NCBI GenBank assembly: GCA_016788565.1
Contig: JAEUSP010000048.1
Location: forward strand, 1 to 64,000
Direction: 5' to 3'
Source: Chlorobiota bacterium
GTDB taxonomy: Bacteria; Bacteroidota; Ignavibacteria; OLB7
Length of the DNA stretch: 64,000 nt
The notes beneath the pieces were generated by a model. That model made no database searches and was not told the origin of the DNA. It saw only the letters and a program-made list of their open reading frames with translations. The position numbers and the translations under genes were made by a program. Of the stretch, positions 49,035-61,559 are shown in pieces (position 1 is the first letter of the stretch; the number at the start of each line of letters is the position of its first letter).

Positions 49035-49592
49035 ATGCATGATGCCCCTCATATTGACGGGCCAAGCGATGAAGAACTGATGGAGCAATTCAAAGGCGGA
49101 AGTGAGCAAGCCTTTGTCGCGCTCTATAAACGATACAACCGTCGGGTGTACGCGTACTGCCTGAAGATGCTTGGCCAGCGCGAAGCTGCCGAAGACCTTT
49201 TCCAAGAAGTCTTCGTTCGGGTAACCCGTAAACGGGATCATTTCCAAAGTGGGAACTTTTCCGCTTGGCTGTTTGCCATCGCTCGGAACCTTTGCCTAAA
49301 CGCCATCCGGGACCGTGTCCACCACGTCCCGATTGATGACGTACACGAAAGTGCAATGGCCTTTCAGCCCGCCGAGGAATACGACGAAAGCAGTGAAATT
49401 TTGAAGAAGGCAATCGAAAAATTGCCACACGATCTTCGCGAAGCCCTTGTGCTACGGGTCTATAATGGCTTCAGCTACAACGAAATTTCGGAGATCACCA
49501 ACACCAAGTTAGCAACCGTGAAGGTCCGAATCTTCCGGGCAAAGCAACGGCTGTATGATATTCTGGCTCCATACTTTTTGGATAAGGTATAA
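49035..49592 (+). CDS. ECF-type RNA polymerase sigma factor
   Basis: A 185-residue sigma factor. Region 2 (about 12-90) has DEELMEQFKGGSEQAFVALY, AAEDLFQEVFVRV and FSAWLFAIARNLCLNAIRD. Region 4 (about 120-182) has IEKLPHDLREALVLRVYNGFSYNEISEIT, then LATVKVRIFRAKQRL. Translation starts at the ATG directly before the conserved part. It is followed after 3 bp by a membrane protein with an anti-sigma-like N-terminus, so the two form a regulatory pair. It is divergent from the tricorn gene. Confidence 0.92.
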   Translation: MHDAPHIDGPSDEELMEQFKGGSEQAFVALYKRYNRRVYAYCLKMLGQREAAEDLFQEVFVRVTRKRDHFQSGNFSAWLFAIARNLCLNAIRDRVHHVPIDDVHESAMAFQPAEEYDESSEILKKAIEKLPHDLREALVLRVYNGFSYNEISEITNTKLATVKVRIFRAKQRLYDILAPYFLDKV

Positions 49593-49595
49593 AAC

Positions 49596-50213
49596 ATGAC
49601 GACACAGGAACTTCTCATCGGACATTTTGAAGGGGGCTTGACCCCAGAAGAATCACTCCATTTGGAGACCATGCTCTCCGGTTCGGCCGAGCTTCGGGCG
49701 CAGTTTCATCAGCATCAACAGATCCATTCCATGATGCAGCGCGAAGCTGAGGAAACCAAACCATCCGATGCACTGGACGAAGCCACAATCGGCGCCGCAC
49801 TGGGCCTGTTGGGGCAAACCGTTGGCGGGGCCAGCATTGCCTTCTGGACCGGAACAAAAATTGCCGCAACGATTGGAACGGTGGTGGTTGGCGGGGCAGT
49901 CACCTGGTTTGCCGTAACCCAAAACCCCGAACCGCAGGCCCCAGCAGCAACCACTACTCAGCCAACTCCAACGATCCAAACCGCGCCAGCACCGCAGTTG
50001 CAGGCACCGACGGTTGCGCCGGTGGTGGTGGAGAAGCCAGCATCCAGCAGTAGCACCGGACAAGTTACTTCAACAAGCAGCTCAAAGGAGTCGAACGCGG
50101 CACGGCTCAAAAATGATAAAGGGGATACGCAAGATGGGAAGATGGATATTGGGAAGGAGGACCCAGTAAATGTGGATGGCGGCACAAAATTCAGCAACGA
50201 AAAACCTAAATAA
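49596..50213 (+). CDS. Anti-sigma-like single-pass membrane protein with Pro/Thr/Ser tail
   Basis: A 205-residue protein encoded 3 bp after the ECF sigma gene. The N-terminal cytoplasmic part, about 1-80 (ELLIGHFEGGLTPEESLHLE and QFHQHQQIHSMMQ), resembles the same part of the large protein at 56878 in length, residue pattern and position. No zinc-binding HxxxCxxC is present, so it is not a ZAS anti-sigma. A membrane helix spans about 86-107. The remaining 95 residues are disordered, rich in Pro/Thr/Gln and then Ser/Lys/Asp, and would lie in the periplasm. The role is inferred from gene order. A strong terminator ends the pair. Confidence 0.75.
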   Translation: MTTQELLIGHFEGGLTPEESLHLETMLSGSAELRAQFHQHQQIHSMMQREAEETKPSDALDEATIGAALGLLGQTVGGASIAFWTGTKIAATIGTVVVGGAVTWFAVTQNPEPQAPAATTTQPTPTIQTAPAPQLQAPTVAPVVVEKPASSSSTGQVTSTSSSKESNAARLKNDKGDTQDGKMDIGKEDPVNVDGGTKFSNEKPK

Positions 50214-55873: not shown

Positions 55874-56163
55874 GAACGTTTGAAATTGCTTGCCCAATGG
55901 ACGGGGATCGCTTGTATCCAAGCTGCGCCGCCGTGATTTTTTTTTGCGAGGTTACTAACAAATCGGCCAATTCCTGTGTTAGAAGTATGCGGGCGTTTTG
56001 GTACTTGAACACACAACCGACTGAAGCCCCCGCTGGTGTTGGGGGATTTGTGGGGGAAAGTTCTCACAATCGGCGATTTTGCGCTGATTACTCCGTTTTT
56101 CAAGGCCATTCCGGCCTCTGCTTCTGTTTCCTGGCTAATTCCTTTTGCGCAATCGAACAACCA

Positions 56164-56745
56164 GTGCCCCTTACCGATTTGTTCATAGAGCAACCATCGC
56201 AGCAGCGTCAGCATGATGACGACGCGCTGATGCTGCGCGTGCGCAAAGGGGATGAGCTTGCGTTTAGGACGTTATACGACCGCTACAAGAGCCAGATATT
56301 CTGGTTCTGCTACCGTACGCTGAAGGACCGCGACAACGCCAAAGATGCTGTTCAGGAGGTGTTCATCCTGATCTACCGGATGCGCGCCAAATATGTGGCC
56401 GGGACAAATTTTGCGGGGTGGATTCACTCCATCGCCCGCAACCAATGCCTGAATATCCTCCGCACGCAGAAGGATACCGAACCGTTCGATGAGCTTCAGG
56501 GGTACGCCATTGCAATGGCCAACGAAACCAGCGATACCGCTTTGCAGGATCACCTTGCCTACGAAGTTGCTCAACTCCCCGAAATCTACCGCGAGGCGTT
56601 GCTGCTGCGGGAGTACGAAGGGCATTCCTACCAGCAGATTGCCGACATCACAGGGCTGGCACTCTCGGCAGTGAAATTCAGGATTTTCAAAGCGCGTGAT
56701 ATGCTTCGCGAACGGCTGGCAAAACGGCTGGATGAATTCGACTAA
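56164..56745 (+). CDS. ECF-type RNA polymerase sigma factor (third module)
   Basis: About 193 residues if begun at GTG 56164. The start is uncertain, since family homology begins near HDDDALMLRVRKGDELAF and no ATG sits just before it. Region 2 shows DAVQEVFILIYRM and FAGWIHSIARNQCLNIL, and region 4 shows AQLPEIYREALLLREYEGHSYQQIADIT, then LSAVKFRIFKARDML. It is followed after 132 bp by the anti-sigma/barrel fusion gene, then a lipoprotein and a T9SS protein on the same strand, which suggests an autoregulated envelope operon. Confidence 0.9.
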   Translation: MPLTDLFIEQPSQQRQHDDDALMLRVRKGDELAFRTLYDRYKSQIFWFCYRTLKDRDNAKDAVQEVFILIYRMRAKYVAGTNFAGWIHSIARNQCLNILRTQKDTEPFDELQGYAIAMANETSDTALQDHLAYEVAQLPEIYREALLLREYEGHSYQQIADITGLALSAVKFRIFKARDMLRERLAKRLDEFD

Positions 56746-56877
56746 CGGCACGTCCGCTGTGTAAAGAAATCCCAACTTCAAGTGTTTTTCGTGATAGCGA
56801 AACAGCGATAGAGCAAAACAACGATAGAGCAAACAGAGTAACCAATAACGCTAACGATAGACGGCCACTTTTTTACG

Positions 56878-58383
56878 ATGAATACCAACGACATTCAGGA
56901 GTTGCTGGAAGGCACGCTTAGTGATGAGCAGATGGCCGAAGCACTCCACGTCCTTTCCGTCAGTCCCGAGCGGCGAACCGCATTCCGCCAACACATGGCC
57001 TTGCGCGATGCCCTCGAGAAAGACCGCCTCACCAACGGCCTGCGTTCCGATGAAGATGCTGCTATCTGGGGGGCGATTGCCGGAGGAAGCGGGGTTGTGG
57101 CAAACCCCGTTGCACGCCCGTTCCTGGGTGGATGGATGCGCCGAGGCATCGCACTGGCCACGGCCGGAGTGGTTGGCTACATCTTGGGATCTACGCAGTT
57201 CGGGGCTTGGTTCGGCGGGGGCGAACAAGCTGGCAACCAGCAGGAAGGGGGAAGTGTGGAGGCCGTGAGCAATATCGCCACCGCCCCGCTTGCGTTGGCT
57301 CCGTCCGCGCTGATCCCGTCAGCTTCGGCGGCGTTGCAGCAGATGGGAGATAGAGTTCCCGCCGCGTCGGATTTGTCGGCAACGGTTCTCAACTCTACCG
57401 TGAGCAACTCTGCAGCAGCCTCCAAGCCACAAATAATCTACCGCGACCGCATCGTCCGGGTTCCGGTTGAATCCAGCAGCAACGCCTCTTCTTCTGCCTC
57501 CCTATCCTCCGCTTCCGACCCGGTGAAGAACGCGGCAGTGGCAAGCGCAGTGGCAAGTGCTGAACAGCAAAACAGCCAGCCGCCAACGGCTTCAAATACT
57601 CCTCCAACTACTCCAACATCAAGCCTTGCCAACGACCTTCACTCCATGTTGCTGGGCAATCAATCAATGTTGCCGTTGAACGGTGGAGTAAGCAATGGAG
57701 TAAGCAATGAGCGCGCCGCAAGTAATTCTGCTTCCTCCAACGCCGACAACACCGAGAAATCCAACAACAACTCCGGAAAGGGAAATACTTCCGTTGCAGC
57801 CGATCCCAGGATTGACCCCACGCGGGCAAATGGATTTGAGATGATTTACAGCGAGCGGCTTGGCATGTTGGCACCAACGCCACAAGGGATCACCAATCCC
57901 GACCGTGAGTTCAGCAACCGCAGTGTTGGCGCGATGTACCGCTTTGGCGAAGGGCAATTTGGCTTGGGTGCGCGGATGGTCTATGGCACGCTGGCATCGG
58001 TCAGCCTGCAGAAAGTTGGCGTGAACATCACCGGCGGAAACGATTACGGCCCGGTGCTGAACGCCAGCAAAAAATTGTGGGTGGAGGCCGTCGGAAACTA
58101 CCGCATCCCCCTTTCGGGAACAATGGCGTTGAACTTTGAAGGATCGTTCGGAACCAACTCCACCAGCACGCTGTACGGCGCCGATGCGTTTGTGGTGTGG
58201 TATTTCACCAACACCATCGGGGCGCAACTTGGCGCGGGGGTGGCAAGCTACAGCTACGACCTGCGTGAGGAACGCCGCAAACTGATTGAAGGAAGCCTGA
58301 ACGATGGCGTTGTTTCCACCGCCAGCGATACCTACCGCGGAACCCTGCTTCAGGGGCGTTACGGAATCTTCTTCCAATTCTAA
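56878..58383 (+). CDS. Anti-sigma-like protein fused to an outer-membrane beta-barrel
   Basis: A 501-residue protein downstream of an ECF sigma gene. Layout: cytoplasmic anti-sigma-like domain 1-85 (DIQELLEGTLSDEQMAEALH and AFRQHMALRDALEKD, like the protein at 49596); one membrane helix at about 88-108; a 200-residue disordered Ser/Ala/Asn/Thr linker at about 112-315; and a barrel domain at about 319-501. The barrel has about eight amphipathic strands (SVGAMYRFGEGQFGLGARM, KLWVEAVGNYRIP, MALNFEGSFGTN, DAFVVWYFTNTIGAQLGAG, GRYGIFFQF) and a terminal Phe. Such a chain would cross the inner membrane, span the periplasm and insert in the outer membrane, linking outer-membrane state to the sigma factor. 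Dual-membrane anti-sigma factors are known in Bacteroides. Homology to those is untested. Confidence 0.78.
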   Translation: MNTNDIQELLEGTLSDEQMAEALHVLSVSPERRTAFRQHMALRDALEKDRLTNGLRSDEDAAIWGAIAGGSGVVANPVARPFLGGWMRRGIALATAGVVGYILGSTQFGAWFGGGEQAGNQQEGGSVEAVSNIATAPLALAPSALIPSASAALQQMGDRVPAASDLSATVLNSTVSNSAAASKPQIIYRDRIVRVPVESSSNASSSASLSSASDPVKNAAVASAVASAEQQNSQPPTASNTPPTTPTSSLANDLHSMLLGNQSMLPLNGGVSNGVSNERAASNSASSNADNTEKSNNNSGKGNTSVAADPRIDPTRANGFEMIYSERLGMLAPTPQGITNPDREFSNRSVGAMYRFGEGQFGLGARMVYGTLASVSLQKVGVNITGGNDYGPVLNASKKLWVEAVGNYRIPLSGTMALNFEGSFGTNSTSTLYGADAFVVWYFTNTIGAQLGAGVASYSYDLREERRKLIEGSLNDGVVSTASDTYRGTLLQGRYGIFFQF

Positions 58384-58445: not shown

Positions 58446-59156
58446 ATGAAGGCTACAGGAACCATATCGCTGCTTGGGTGCGCCATGCTGCTGTTGGCAT
58501 TGGTGGTTGGGGGGTGCAGCGTCACCGAGCCGGAAGGCCCGACAACGGTTGCCGATTTTTCGTGGCCAACCACCCCCAATTTGGCCATGACCTACAAGAA
58601 AGAATCCAAAAACCCACAGTTGGGAAGCGTGGATACCACCGAGGAACACCTCACGATTCAGCGGTCGAAATCGCAGTTCAAGGGGAACGATATGTTCGAA
58701 CTGTACGACACGGTCTCTTCGGCCTCGGCACGCACCCGGTTCCTTCCGCTGAACGACACGCTGATTGTGTACGATAATTTGGGATGCCAGTACGCGCTGG
58801 TTGGCACAATGGAGAAAGGGGGAGAGTGGTACTCACCACGTCGCGGTTTTGCCGACGACAAGCCCTCGTGGCACGCAAAAATTATCGAACGCTACGACTT
58901 CAAACGGGTGGAAGGGAAGACCTACAAGAACGTAATCGCCGTTCAGTACACCGAGGTTGACAGCAACAAAGTTGAGACTGGAAAAGGCTTGTGGGTGCGG
59001 CTGTTTGCCGAAGGAGTGGGGGTGGTTCAGGAGGTCAGTTACTCCTATCCAATTTCATCAGGGGGAACAACCCAAGTGGGCCAGGACCCGGACTTCGATC
59101 TGCTGCGCCAAGAAGCGCGCCGTGTGCTGATCCAAACCGACGCTGTGCAGAATTAA
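58446..59156 (+). CDS. Putative lipoprotein of the third sigma module
   Basis: A 236-residue predicted lipoprotein. The signal peptide begins MKATGTISLLGCAML and ends in the lipobox LVVGGC. The mature part is beta-rich, with PNLAMTYKKES, LNDTLIVYDNLGC, FKRVEGKTYKNVIAVQYTEV and LWVRLFAEGVGVVQEVSYSY, a pattern seen in LolA/LolB-like or DUF-type lipoproteins that wrap a hydrophobic ligand. ATG 58446 is preferred to an ATG 15 codons upstream. It is the third gene of the sigma/anti-sigma/lipoprotein/T9SS cluster. Confidence 0.75.
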   Translation: MKATGTISLLGCAMLLLALVVGGCSVTEPEGPTTVADFSWPTTPNLAMTYKKESKNPQLGSVDTTEEHLTIQRSKSQFKGNDMFELYDTVSSASARTRFLPLNDTLIVYDNLGCQYALVGTMEKGGEWYSPRRGFADDKPSWHAKIIERYDFKRVEGKTYKNVIAVQYTEVDSNKVETGKGLWVRLFAEGVGVVQEVSYSYPISSGGTTQVGQDPDFDLLRQEARRVLIQTDAVQN

Positions 59157-59180
59157 CACCGACGCTTGACGGACGAACCA

Positions 59181-61559
59181 ATGAATAACCGAACCATACC
59201 AACATTCCTCCTCCTGCTGTGCAGTTTTGCTCTGCTGCCGTGGTTTTCCGCTGCGGCACAGAACGGCACGGCTGACGGAATGATAAACAGCCCGCAGGGA
59301 ACCGAATACTTCGTATCGTTTCCGCAAAATGGAGATGAGCAGCGGAAGCCCTCGCCACGATTCTTGGGGTTGTGGATTACCTCCGAAGTACCAACCACCG
59401 GAATCATCGAAATCCCCACCGGTAAAGCGGAGTGGACTGTGAGGTCCTTTGCCACAAAGCCCGGCGAGCTGACCATCATCGAACTTCCGGCCACGTTGGA
59501 GCAGATCATCAGCGAGGAGATCAGCCGCGGTGGGGTGCATATCCAATCGCGTGATCCGATAGCCGTGTATGCCTATCACTCCCGTTTTCTTTCCGGTGCG
59601 GCCTACCCTGCGGTTCCGCTCAGCTTGTGGGGTCGGCGGTATTTGCCGCTTTCGCTTCCGGCAGCCGATGGGTCGTATAATTCCGCACGCACCAGCCAAA
59701 TCCAGATTGTGGCAGCGTTCGATGGAACCCTGGTCACCATCCGTCCCAGCGCGCGGCTGTACACCAAAGCCGCTGGCGAAGAAGTTCAGGTTGCTTTGAA
59801 GAAAGGGGAGACCTACCTGTTCCAAGCATTCAAGGACCAAACAGTCGAAGGGAATGGCGATTTAAGCGGGACGGAGATCACCTCCAACTTCCCGGTTGGT
59901 GTGGTGACGGGCCACGTCCGTTCGCCGATTACTGTTTCCGGCAGCTTCAATGCGGTGCAAGATTACTCAAGCCACCAAGCGGCAATGATCCTCCCCGATT
60001 CCTTGTGGGGCCAGGAATACTACTCCGCACCGATGAACGGCGTTGGCCGTTTCCGTGCGATTGCTTCGGCCTACAACACCCAGCTCACCATCACCTGGTG
60101 CAAGCCCGATGGCTCGGTTGATCGCCAGGAAAATGTGACGCTGAACCGTGGCGAACTGTTCGACACCCGTGGCACAGCAATCAACGGGGCCAGCTACTGG
60201 AGCGCGACCCGCCCGATATTGGTGATGCAGCATCAAGTTGGGGCAACCTATTCCGACCCCTTCAACAACGCCCCGGCAATGATCCCCCTTACCGCCAGCG
60301 ACCAGTTCCGCAACCGCGCATTGCTCACGGTTCCCACCGAGCTTCGCGGCGAACAATTCCACAAGCCGCTGCTGACGGTGCTTGCAAAAGGGAGCAACAG
60401 CAACCCGTTTGGTGATGTTCAGCTTGATGGCACAAGCATCAGCCAATTGCCCGGCGTAGTGATTCGCCGGATTGGCCAAACCCCCTGCTGGTATGCAACG
60501 CTTTCGGTGGCTTCCGGGGCGCACCTTCTCACCGCTTCCAACGGCGTTGCGATTGCCGGAACAGTTCGTGCCGGAACAACCGGCGGCGATGGCCTAACCT
60601 ACACCCTCCCATCCTGGGTTCCGCAGGTTGGCCCCGACACCGAAGCACCGTTTGTGAAGGAGCAAGCTGCCGCCACAAAAGGGGTGATGCAGCTTCAGGT
60701 GAGCGACCGGACGCAGGGATATTTCAGCGGCGTAAGCGATGTGCGGCTGCTGAACAGCCCCGGTTGGCAACGCCAGCAATACTCGGCCCCGCTGACCATG
60801 GATGACGACGCAACCGCAGCGTTCAAGGCCGTGCAGGACCCAAGCGGGCCGCTCAGCATTCAACTGTGCGACAATGTTGGAAACTGCAACGTGATAGAGT
60901 TCCCCGCTGTCTGCTTCAAGACGGCAAACGTGGATCGCAACAGCGTGGCGATTTCCACAACGCAGGGGAAGCCAGCCACCGAAACGCTGAACGTGGCATC
61001 CAACATCTGCGGCGATGAAGCTCATCTGGAAATCCTTGGCTTTGTTGGTGGCGATGCTGGTGCGTATCTGAGCGCATCGCTTGGCGGCGGCGGGGCGGCG
61101 GCAACCATCCCAGCAAACAGTGCCATCCCGTTGGAACTCACCGTTGTGGGAAATCCACCGCAAGGCGACTACGCCACAACGCTCCGGCTGAAAACCGATG
61201 ACTCGACGCTTGTTGTTCCAATCACGCTTCACGTCGCCGGCCCATCGGGTGTGGCGTTCCAGCAGGGGGCGGAACAGCAACGTGCGGTGTTGGCTCCGAA
61301 CCCATTCCGAACCAGCACCTTCTTGCTGGTAGATCAGCCGCTGGGAAGCAATGCCACCATGATTGTTAGCGACCAGCTTGGCCGCCCGGTGCGCAGCTTC
61401 CAGCCCGCTCAGCTTGCCGGAAAAACCAGAGTTGAGTGGGACGGAACCAGCAACGACGGAACACCGGCCGCCAGCGGAATGTACCTTCTGACCATCAGCG
61501 ATCCGACCACCAGCAACGGGCAAACCCGAACAGTGCAAAGCGTGCTGCTGCTTCGATAA
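59181..61559 (+). CDS. IgGFc-binding-like secreted protein with T9SS/FlgD-like C-terminus
   Basis: A 792-residue exported protein with a signal peptide ending AAAQ (about 27). The N-terminal part from about 38 to 480 matches the IgGFc-binding N-terminal domain: GTEYFVSFPQN, TPEFSV-like IIEIPTG, GVHIQSRDPIAVYAYH, DGSYNSARTSQIQIVAAFDG, GVVTGHVRSPITV, HQAAMILPDSLWGQEYY and RPILVMQHQVG. Middle Ig-like segments follow, and an end at about 700-792 (VLAPNPFRTSTFLLVD, then GMYLLTISDPT) combines FlgD-like and T9SS sorting features. It is probably a surface adhesin or glycoprotein-binding protein. ATG 59181 is chosen over a TTG five codons upstream. It is last in the third sigma cluster and a plausible regulated product. 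Confidence 0.85.
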   Translation: MNNRTIPTFLLLLCSFALLPWFSAAAQNGTADGMINSPQGTEYFVSFPQNGDEQRKPSPRFLGLWITSEVPTTGIIEIPTGKAEWTVRSFATKPGELTIIELPATLEQIISEEISRGGVHIQSRDPIAVYAYHSRFLSGAAYPAVPLSLWGRRYLPLSLPAADGSYNSARTSQIQIVAAFDGTLVTIRPSARLYTKAAGEEVQVALKKGETYLFQAFKDQTVEGNGDLSGTEITSNFPVGVVTGHVRSPITVSGSFNAVQDYSSHQAAMILPDSLWGQEYYSAPMNGVGRFRAIASAYNTQLTITWCKPDGSVDRQENVTLNRGELFDTRGTAINGASYWSATRPILVMQHQVGATYSDPFNNAPAMIPLTASDQFRNRALLTVPTELRGEQFHKPLLTVLAKGSNSNPFGDVQLDGTSISQLPGVVIRRIGQTPCWYATLSVASGAHLLTASNGVAIAGTVRAGTTGGDGLTYTLPSWVPQVGPDTEAPFVKEQAAATKGVMQLQVSDRTQGYFSGVSDVRLLNSPGWQRQQYSAPLTMDDDATAAFKAVQDPSGPLSIQLCDNVGNCNVIEFPAVCFKTANVDRNSVAISTTQGKPATETLNVASNICGDEAHLEILGFVGGDAGAYLSASLGGGGAAATIPANSAIPLELTVVGNPPQGDYATTLRLKTDDSTLVVPITLHVAGPSGVAFQQGAEQQRAVLAPNPFRTSTFLLVDQPLGSNATMIVSDQLGRPVRSFQPAQLAGKTRVEWDGTSNDGTPAASGMYLLTISDPTTSNGQTRTVQSVLLLR

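Follow-up and report, generated by a model that had tools for sequence, protein, structure and literature searches.

Experimental knowledge of anti-sigma factors that span both membranes, the Dma factors, comes from a few Bacteroides proteins (PMC13088901). In the experimentally studied Dma2 operon, das2 and dma2 are followed by DUF4943, DUF4858 and a gene resembling ACP reductases or nitronate monooxygenases (PMC13088901). In the FecI-FecR-FecA system, the status of an outer-membrane barrel reaches an ECF sigma factor through a one-helix anti-sigma factor, with barrel and anti-sigma factor being separate proteins (PMC9249621). Class I anti-sigma domains (ASDI) consist of four helices, of which three are bundled and the fourth follows a linker, and about 44% of them lack the zinc motif (PMC7406223).

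We analysed a stretch of 64,000 nucleotides (the window) from a Chlorobiota bacterium, in which a single chain carries an anti-sigma-like domain, a membrane helix, a long linker and an eight-stranded barrel ending in Phe, and is encoded beside an ECF sigma factor. This architecture had been read from the bare sequence in a first-pass annotation and is borne out by AlphaFold2, Foldseek and Pfam. The protein is probably a trans-envelope anti-sigma factor that holds back the adjoining ECF sigma factor and is anchored through both membranes to its outer-membrane barrel. The features of the locus are:

55955..55981, + strand: predicted promoter of the sigma operon, CTAACAAA-N13-GTGTTA (kept in all five family genomes; only match in the window)
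56164..56745, + strand: ECF sigma factor, 193 aa, GTG start (Pfam Sigma70_r2/r4_2; ortholog starts)
56878..58383, + strand: putative trans-envelope anti-sigma factor, 501 aa (ORF, orthologs, AlphaFold2)
56878..57078, + strand: predicted non-zinc class I-type anti-sigma domain, residues 1-67, four helices (AlphaFold2; RseA_N matches in relatives; alignment with zinc-type domains)
57121..57210, + strand: predicted inner-membrane helix, residues 82-111 (AlphaFold2 helix; homolog hydropathy; sequence)
57211..57825, + strand: predicted disordered periplasmic tether, residues 112-316 (low pLDDT; homolog linkers)
57826..58380, + strand: predicted eight-stranded outer-membrane-type barrel, residues 317-501, C-terminal Phe (AlphaFold2; Foldseek)
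58446..59156, + strand: lipoprotein, lipobox VGGC, third operon gene, predicted LolA/YmcC-like fold (lipobox; predicted structure; structural matches)
59166..61559, + strand: secreted protein with IgGFc-binding and T9SS type A sorting domains (Pfam; orthologous loci)

The ECF sigma gene sits directly upstream of the fusion gene, and its product matches Sigma70_r2 (5e-14) and Sigma70_r4_2 (6e-15) in Pfam. Its unusual GTG start at 56164 is supported by three orthologs that have GTG at the same place. The 501-aa fusion was modelled with AlphaFold2 from a 21-row family alignment. In the computed architecture, N-terminal helices at residues 3-11, 16-28, 30-53 and 57-67 are followed by a long helix spanning 82-111, while residues 103-303 have a pLDDT under 50 and no confident structure. 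Arg 80, 88 and 89 flank the membrane helix N-terminally and the next Lys or Arg after it comes only at residue 159, which argues for an N-in topology. In the window fusion this helix scores low (Kyte-Doolittle 1.29 at residues 90-91) and is equalled by a linker stretch at residue 133 (1.32); its hydropathy is clearer in most homologs, at about 1.4-2.4. Where FecI-FecR-FecA uses a separate, large TonB-dependent receptor, the window fusion is one chain with eight strands; Pfam finds no FecR domain in the fusion, and no TonB-dependent receptor is found among the neighbouring genes.

The nearest described counterpart is Dma2 of Bacteroides. It shares with the window fusion an anti-sigma part, a membrane helix, a disordered tether and a C-terminal barrel, and in both operons the gene is immediately preceded by an ECF sigma gene and immediately followed by one for a lipoprotein, DUF4943 in the case of Dma2. 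The model of the window fusion and its relatives have the dual-membrane architecture by which such factors are defined (PMC13088901). For the comparison, a search with DUF4943 recovered by synteny two genomes with the published Dma2 gene order, and in both loci the DUF4943 protein carries a lipobox; searches that started from PF13568 or from the N-domain model did not reach the Bacteroides Dma. Dma2, from a different lineage than the window fusion, has about 45 residues before its helix where the window fusion has a full four-helix domain; its barrel is of the OMP_b-brl type, while that of the window fusion belongs to another sequence family; and the third gene of its operon is unrelated to the window lipoprotein by BLASTP. 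A comparison of the window fusion with the two Dma2 orthologs, run by sequence and by profile, detected no similarity in either half (BLASTP E 6.3; hhalign probability 0.7%). By analogy of architecture the window fusion thus appears to work like a Dma, to which no kinship is detected in sequence. We also considered an assignment of the window barrel to OMP_b-brl_2 (PF13568), which found no support: there was no Pfam match, a single relative scored 0.04, and the hhalign probabilities were 0.7 and 4.6%.

The fused anti-sigma factor is not a one-off but belongs to a large, class-wide family with several copies per genome. Full-length orthologs occur in four more genomes of the family, at 82% and 31-33% identity, and those relatives that carry names are uncultured assemblies of the Chlorobiota, Kapaibacterium and Ignavibacteria types. 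Family loci were collected by a search with a narrowed alignment. Of 395 genomes drawn from across the phylum, 38 from the class gave matches, in nearly all cases with long fused frames; outside the class, matches were almost only to the N-domain and mostly in frames of 187-249 aa. Across the class we collected 58 distinct homologous fusions, and all 57 of them with enough upstream sequence for a check have a sigma gene adjoining the fusion. The automatic count of sigma neighbours was 55; L007 and L119 were added, as their over-long predicted starts overlap their sigma gene. A search of the open-access literature found no earlier description of this fusion family or of PorP/SprF-fused anti-sigma factors, which is weak evidence.

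We infer that the fusion inhibits this sigma factor and that, in the cell, it bridges the two membranes as a single uncut chain. The rival that survives best is that the chain is cut constitutively after export, so that barrel and anti-sigma domain act as two proteins, much like a separated receptor and anti-sigma factor. A disordered tether of 200 residues is easily cleaved, and M50 site-2-type proteases are encoded in the genome, as in nearly all bacteria. These proteases, together with the co-encoded lipoprotein, also leave unestablished the suggestion of the first-pass annotation that the protein would work with no separate receptor or protease cascade. Against constitutive cutting, no A-x-A site of the signal-peptidase type was seen by eye to be conserved behind the helix in the family alignment. 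The barrel profile, moreover, gave matches at 53 places, spread over 41 genomes and always within frames of 365-573 aa, and at every one of the 53 the barrel carried an N-terminal extension. The linkers of the homologs, too, keep to about 110-210 residues, none being reliably shorter than about 110 (apparent lower values come from partial or spurious barrel matches), and this minimum is enough for the periplasm when extended. We therefore regard constitutive cutting as improbable.

A second rival concerns the barrel itself, which could be a soluble periplasmic, lipocalin-like eight-stranded barrel acting as a ligand sensor, in which case only the inner membrane would be spanned. The C-terminal part was modelled as eight strands, at residues 319-332, 344-356, 361-382, 388-411, 416-426, 430-442, 447-461 and 485-500, with most blocks at a pLDDT of about 75-94. 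Strand amphipathicity, calculated for the window fusion as a single sequence, is not significant (p = 0.07), as a soluble barrel would allow. However, the leading Foldseek matches are the outer-membrane barrels Ail, NspA, OmpA, OprF and OmpX, and no lipocalin appears among the 50 matches listed. The C-terminal residue is also conserved in the manner of outer-membrane barrel signals, being F in 41 and L in 11 of the 62 long proteins that carry the N-domain. A soluble sensor is thus very unlikely. In the favoured outer-membrane barrel, eight strands place both ends in the periplasm, as is needed for an attached tether.

The N-terminal domain is best read, from sequence comparison and the predicted model, as a divergent, non-zinc class I anti-sigma domain. 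For the window fusion alone Pfam gives no significant match to this domain, and its best PDB match is RseA (1or7, E 0.097). Among the 21 relatives, RseA_N matches six (best E 1.9e-4) and zf-HC2 three (best 0.0018), and the AlphaFold2 model has the four helices of a class I domain. The zinc motif is missing, as the first-pass annotation had noticed: the whole fusion contains no Cys, and in an alignment with two zinc-type anti-sigma factors of other classes the Hx3Cx2C positions are taken by V25, S29 and R32. The same domain is related to the N-domains of barrel-fused Bacteroidia anti-sigma factors (hhalign probability 92.8%). An unrelated, new type of N-domain was rejected on these matches and alignments taken together. 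The earlier description of the N-terminal domain as different from that of Bacteroides consequently holds as far as no similarity to Dma2 is detectable, but not in the sense of a new type. That the fusion is a structural inter-membrane tether whose place beside a sigma gene is non-regulatory is hardly credible, even though the case for regulation rests on architecture and neighbourhood, because 57 of 57 checkable fusions adjoin an ECF sigma gene, the N-domain shares homology with anti-sigma domains, zinc-binding ones among them, and short barrel-less paralogs of the same genomes also adjoin sigma genes.

The third gene of the operon encodes a lipoprotein, and the order sigma factor, fusion, lipoprotein recurs in several families of the class. 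By inspection a lipoprotein directly follows the fusion in 18 of 21 loci; an automatic rule finds it in 24 of 36, the remaining 12 fusions having no recognisable lipoprotein next door. The window lipoprotein is predicted to be all-beta (pLDDT 80). Its best structural matches are a Bacteroides protein of the YmcC fold and LolA-type proteins, and as the TM-scores are low (0.37-0.41) these point to a likeness of fold, with kinship unproven. Further downstream, the IgGFc-binding/T9SS protein (59166-61559) occupies the position after the lipoprotein in three of the four orthologous loci as well and is a possible output of the system. The arrangement resembles rpoE-rseA-rseB of E. coli, where the same gene order encodes a sigma factor, an RseA_N-type anti-sigma factor with one membrane helix and a periplasm-facing protein, RseB, which has a LolA-like fold. 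Unlike the window fusion, RseA has no barrel or outer-membrane anchor; RseB is soluble whereas the third product here is a lipoprotein; and the targets of RpoE are folding factors, whereas those predicted here are surface and secreted proteins.

All five family genomes have a candidate promoter, CTAACAAA-N12/13-GTGTTA, ahead of the sigma gene. The pattern has one match in the window, with 0.00 expected, and occurs 22 times in the five genomes compared with 2 for the reversed pattern (two near-identical site pairs near contig ends may be duplicates). Its TAAC and GTTA elements lie 17-18 bases apart and resemble ECF promoters generally. ECF sigma factors usually autoregulate, and it is for this reason that we take this sigma factor as the probable reader of the motif; it could instead be read by another ECF sigma factor of the genome, given the at least 14 proteins with this anti-sigma domain encoded there. 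In all five genomes the motif precedes an exported protein, of 1450-1500 aa in the three where it could be read whole, and the two of these that were checked contain FlgD_ig and a weak T9SS-type tail. Each of the two closest genomes has, in addition, two FG-GAP-type repeat proteins behind the motif, and in three of the five genomes a rhodanese-type protein is preceded by it. The output of the system is therefore likely to be surface and secreted proteins, and the T9SS-type targets suggest a signal tied to surface assembly or secretion.

As to the sensed signal, the release of the sigma factor and its use of the motif, we infer the following course. The N-terminal class I-type domain would keep the adjoining sigma factor at the inner membrane, on its cytoplasmic face. 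A single helix would cross that membrane, the disordered tether would cross the periplasm, and the eight-stranded barrel would anchor the chain in the outer membrane. The barrel would report the condition of either the outer membrane or a surface partner, and the lipoprotein would be a likely modulator. The barrel's own state, whether correct insertion, occupancy or binding by the co-encoded lipoprotein, would be passed down the same chain. Upon a change in the barrel the anti-sigma domain would release the sigma factor, most likely through a tether opened to proteolysis as in RseA-type systems, a mechanical or conformational change alone being the less likely route. Once free, the sigma factor would transcribe, from the promoters described above, the operon that encodes it and a small number of cell-surface and secreted proteins with T9SS-type tails.

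Fusions to other barrels exist in Bacteroidia, where anti-sigma factors are joined to OMP_b-brl_2 barrels (L189, L190) or to PorP/SprF barrels (L191, L198 and L200, which PF11751 matches with E values of 4.5e-25, 2.8e-28 and 7.6e-21). They have the same architecture beside a sigma gene as the window fusion, and related N-domains, but their barrels belong to other families and their sigma factors group with other Bacteroidia sigma factors (97% SH-aLRT). A first sigma-tree test seemed to favour an independent origin (p = 4e-7) and was discarded as confounded, since barrel-less class members nest among the fused ones. A tree joining all fusions was not rejected when all Bacteroidia fusions were included (AU p = 0.16); with only the two OMP-type fusions the value was p = 0.0066, and with Das2, which is 24% identical to the window sigma factor and lies unplaced on a very long branch, it was p = 0.36. 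The first-pass annotation had offered an independent or very divergent case relative to Bacteroides; the divergence stands on the BLASTP and hhalign values given above, and independent origin is unproven by these trees. That the fusion in the window's lineage arose independently is plausible as a guess.

In Bacteroidia an ECF sigma gene followed by a fusion of 520-580 aa was seen at L191, L192, L193, L194, L195, L198, L200 and L202, and likely at L197, L205 and L206, although L205 has no PF11751 match in Pfam. In these proteins a linker joins an anti-sigma-like N-domain and a membrane helix near residue 80 to a barrel of the PorP/SprF type, which belongs to the type IX secretion system.

Compared with the few Bacteroides proteins, the family described here is class-wide, comes from a deep sister lineage and has a different N-domain and barrel, so that the trans-envelope anti-sigma factor looks less like a speciality of Bacteroides and more like a solution of general use. 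It also supplies a conserved lipoprotein partner as a candidate sensor, together with a concrete promoter motif and a target list. Tentatively, dual-membrane anti-sigma factors may have arisen repeatedly, in a Kapabacteria/Ignavibacteria-type lineage with a dedicated barrel, in Bacteroides as Dma, and in Bacteroidia with the type IX PorP/SprF barrel; the window's lineage would then pair its fusion with a LolA-fold lipoprotein and couple the state of the outer membrane or of secretion to type IX-secreted surface proteins. If the origins were independent, the shared tether length, lipoprotein partner and barrel would indicate what the mechanism needs.

The anti-sigma domain also occurs more widely in the window's genome, in both fused and unfused proteins, and the window holds one further copy. 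This lies in a second pair at 49035-50213, composed of an ECF sigma factor (49035-49592) and a barrel-less anti-sigma-domain protein of 205 aa (49596-50213). A 568-aa paralog elsewhere in the genome (L093, 2450-4156) has the anti-sigma N-domain beside a sigma gene and a different C-terminal part, which does not match the barrel profile. Four more paralogs, L121 (3130-4002), L122 (3027-3821), L124 (3259-3921) and L126 (2879-3730), have no barrel; they are 220-290 aa long with disordered C-terminal tails and adjoin sigma genes, which implies that the same N-domain works with or without an outer-membrane anchor.
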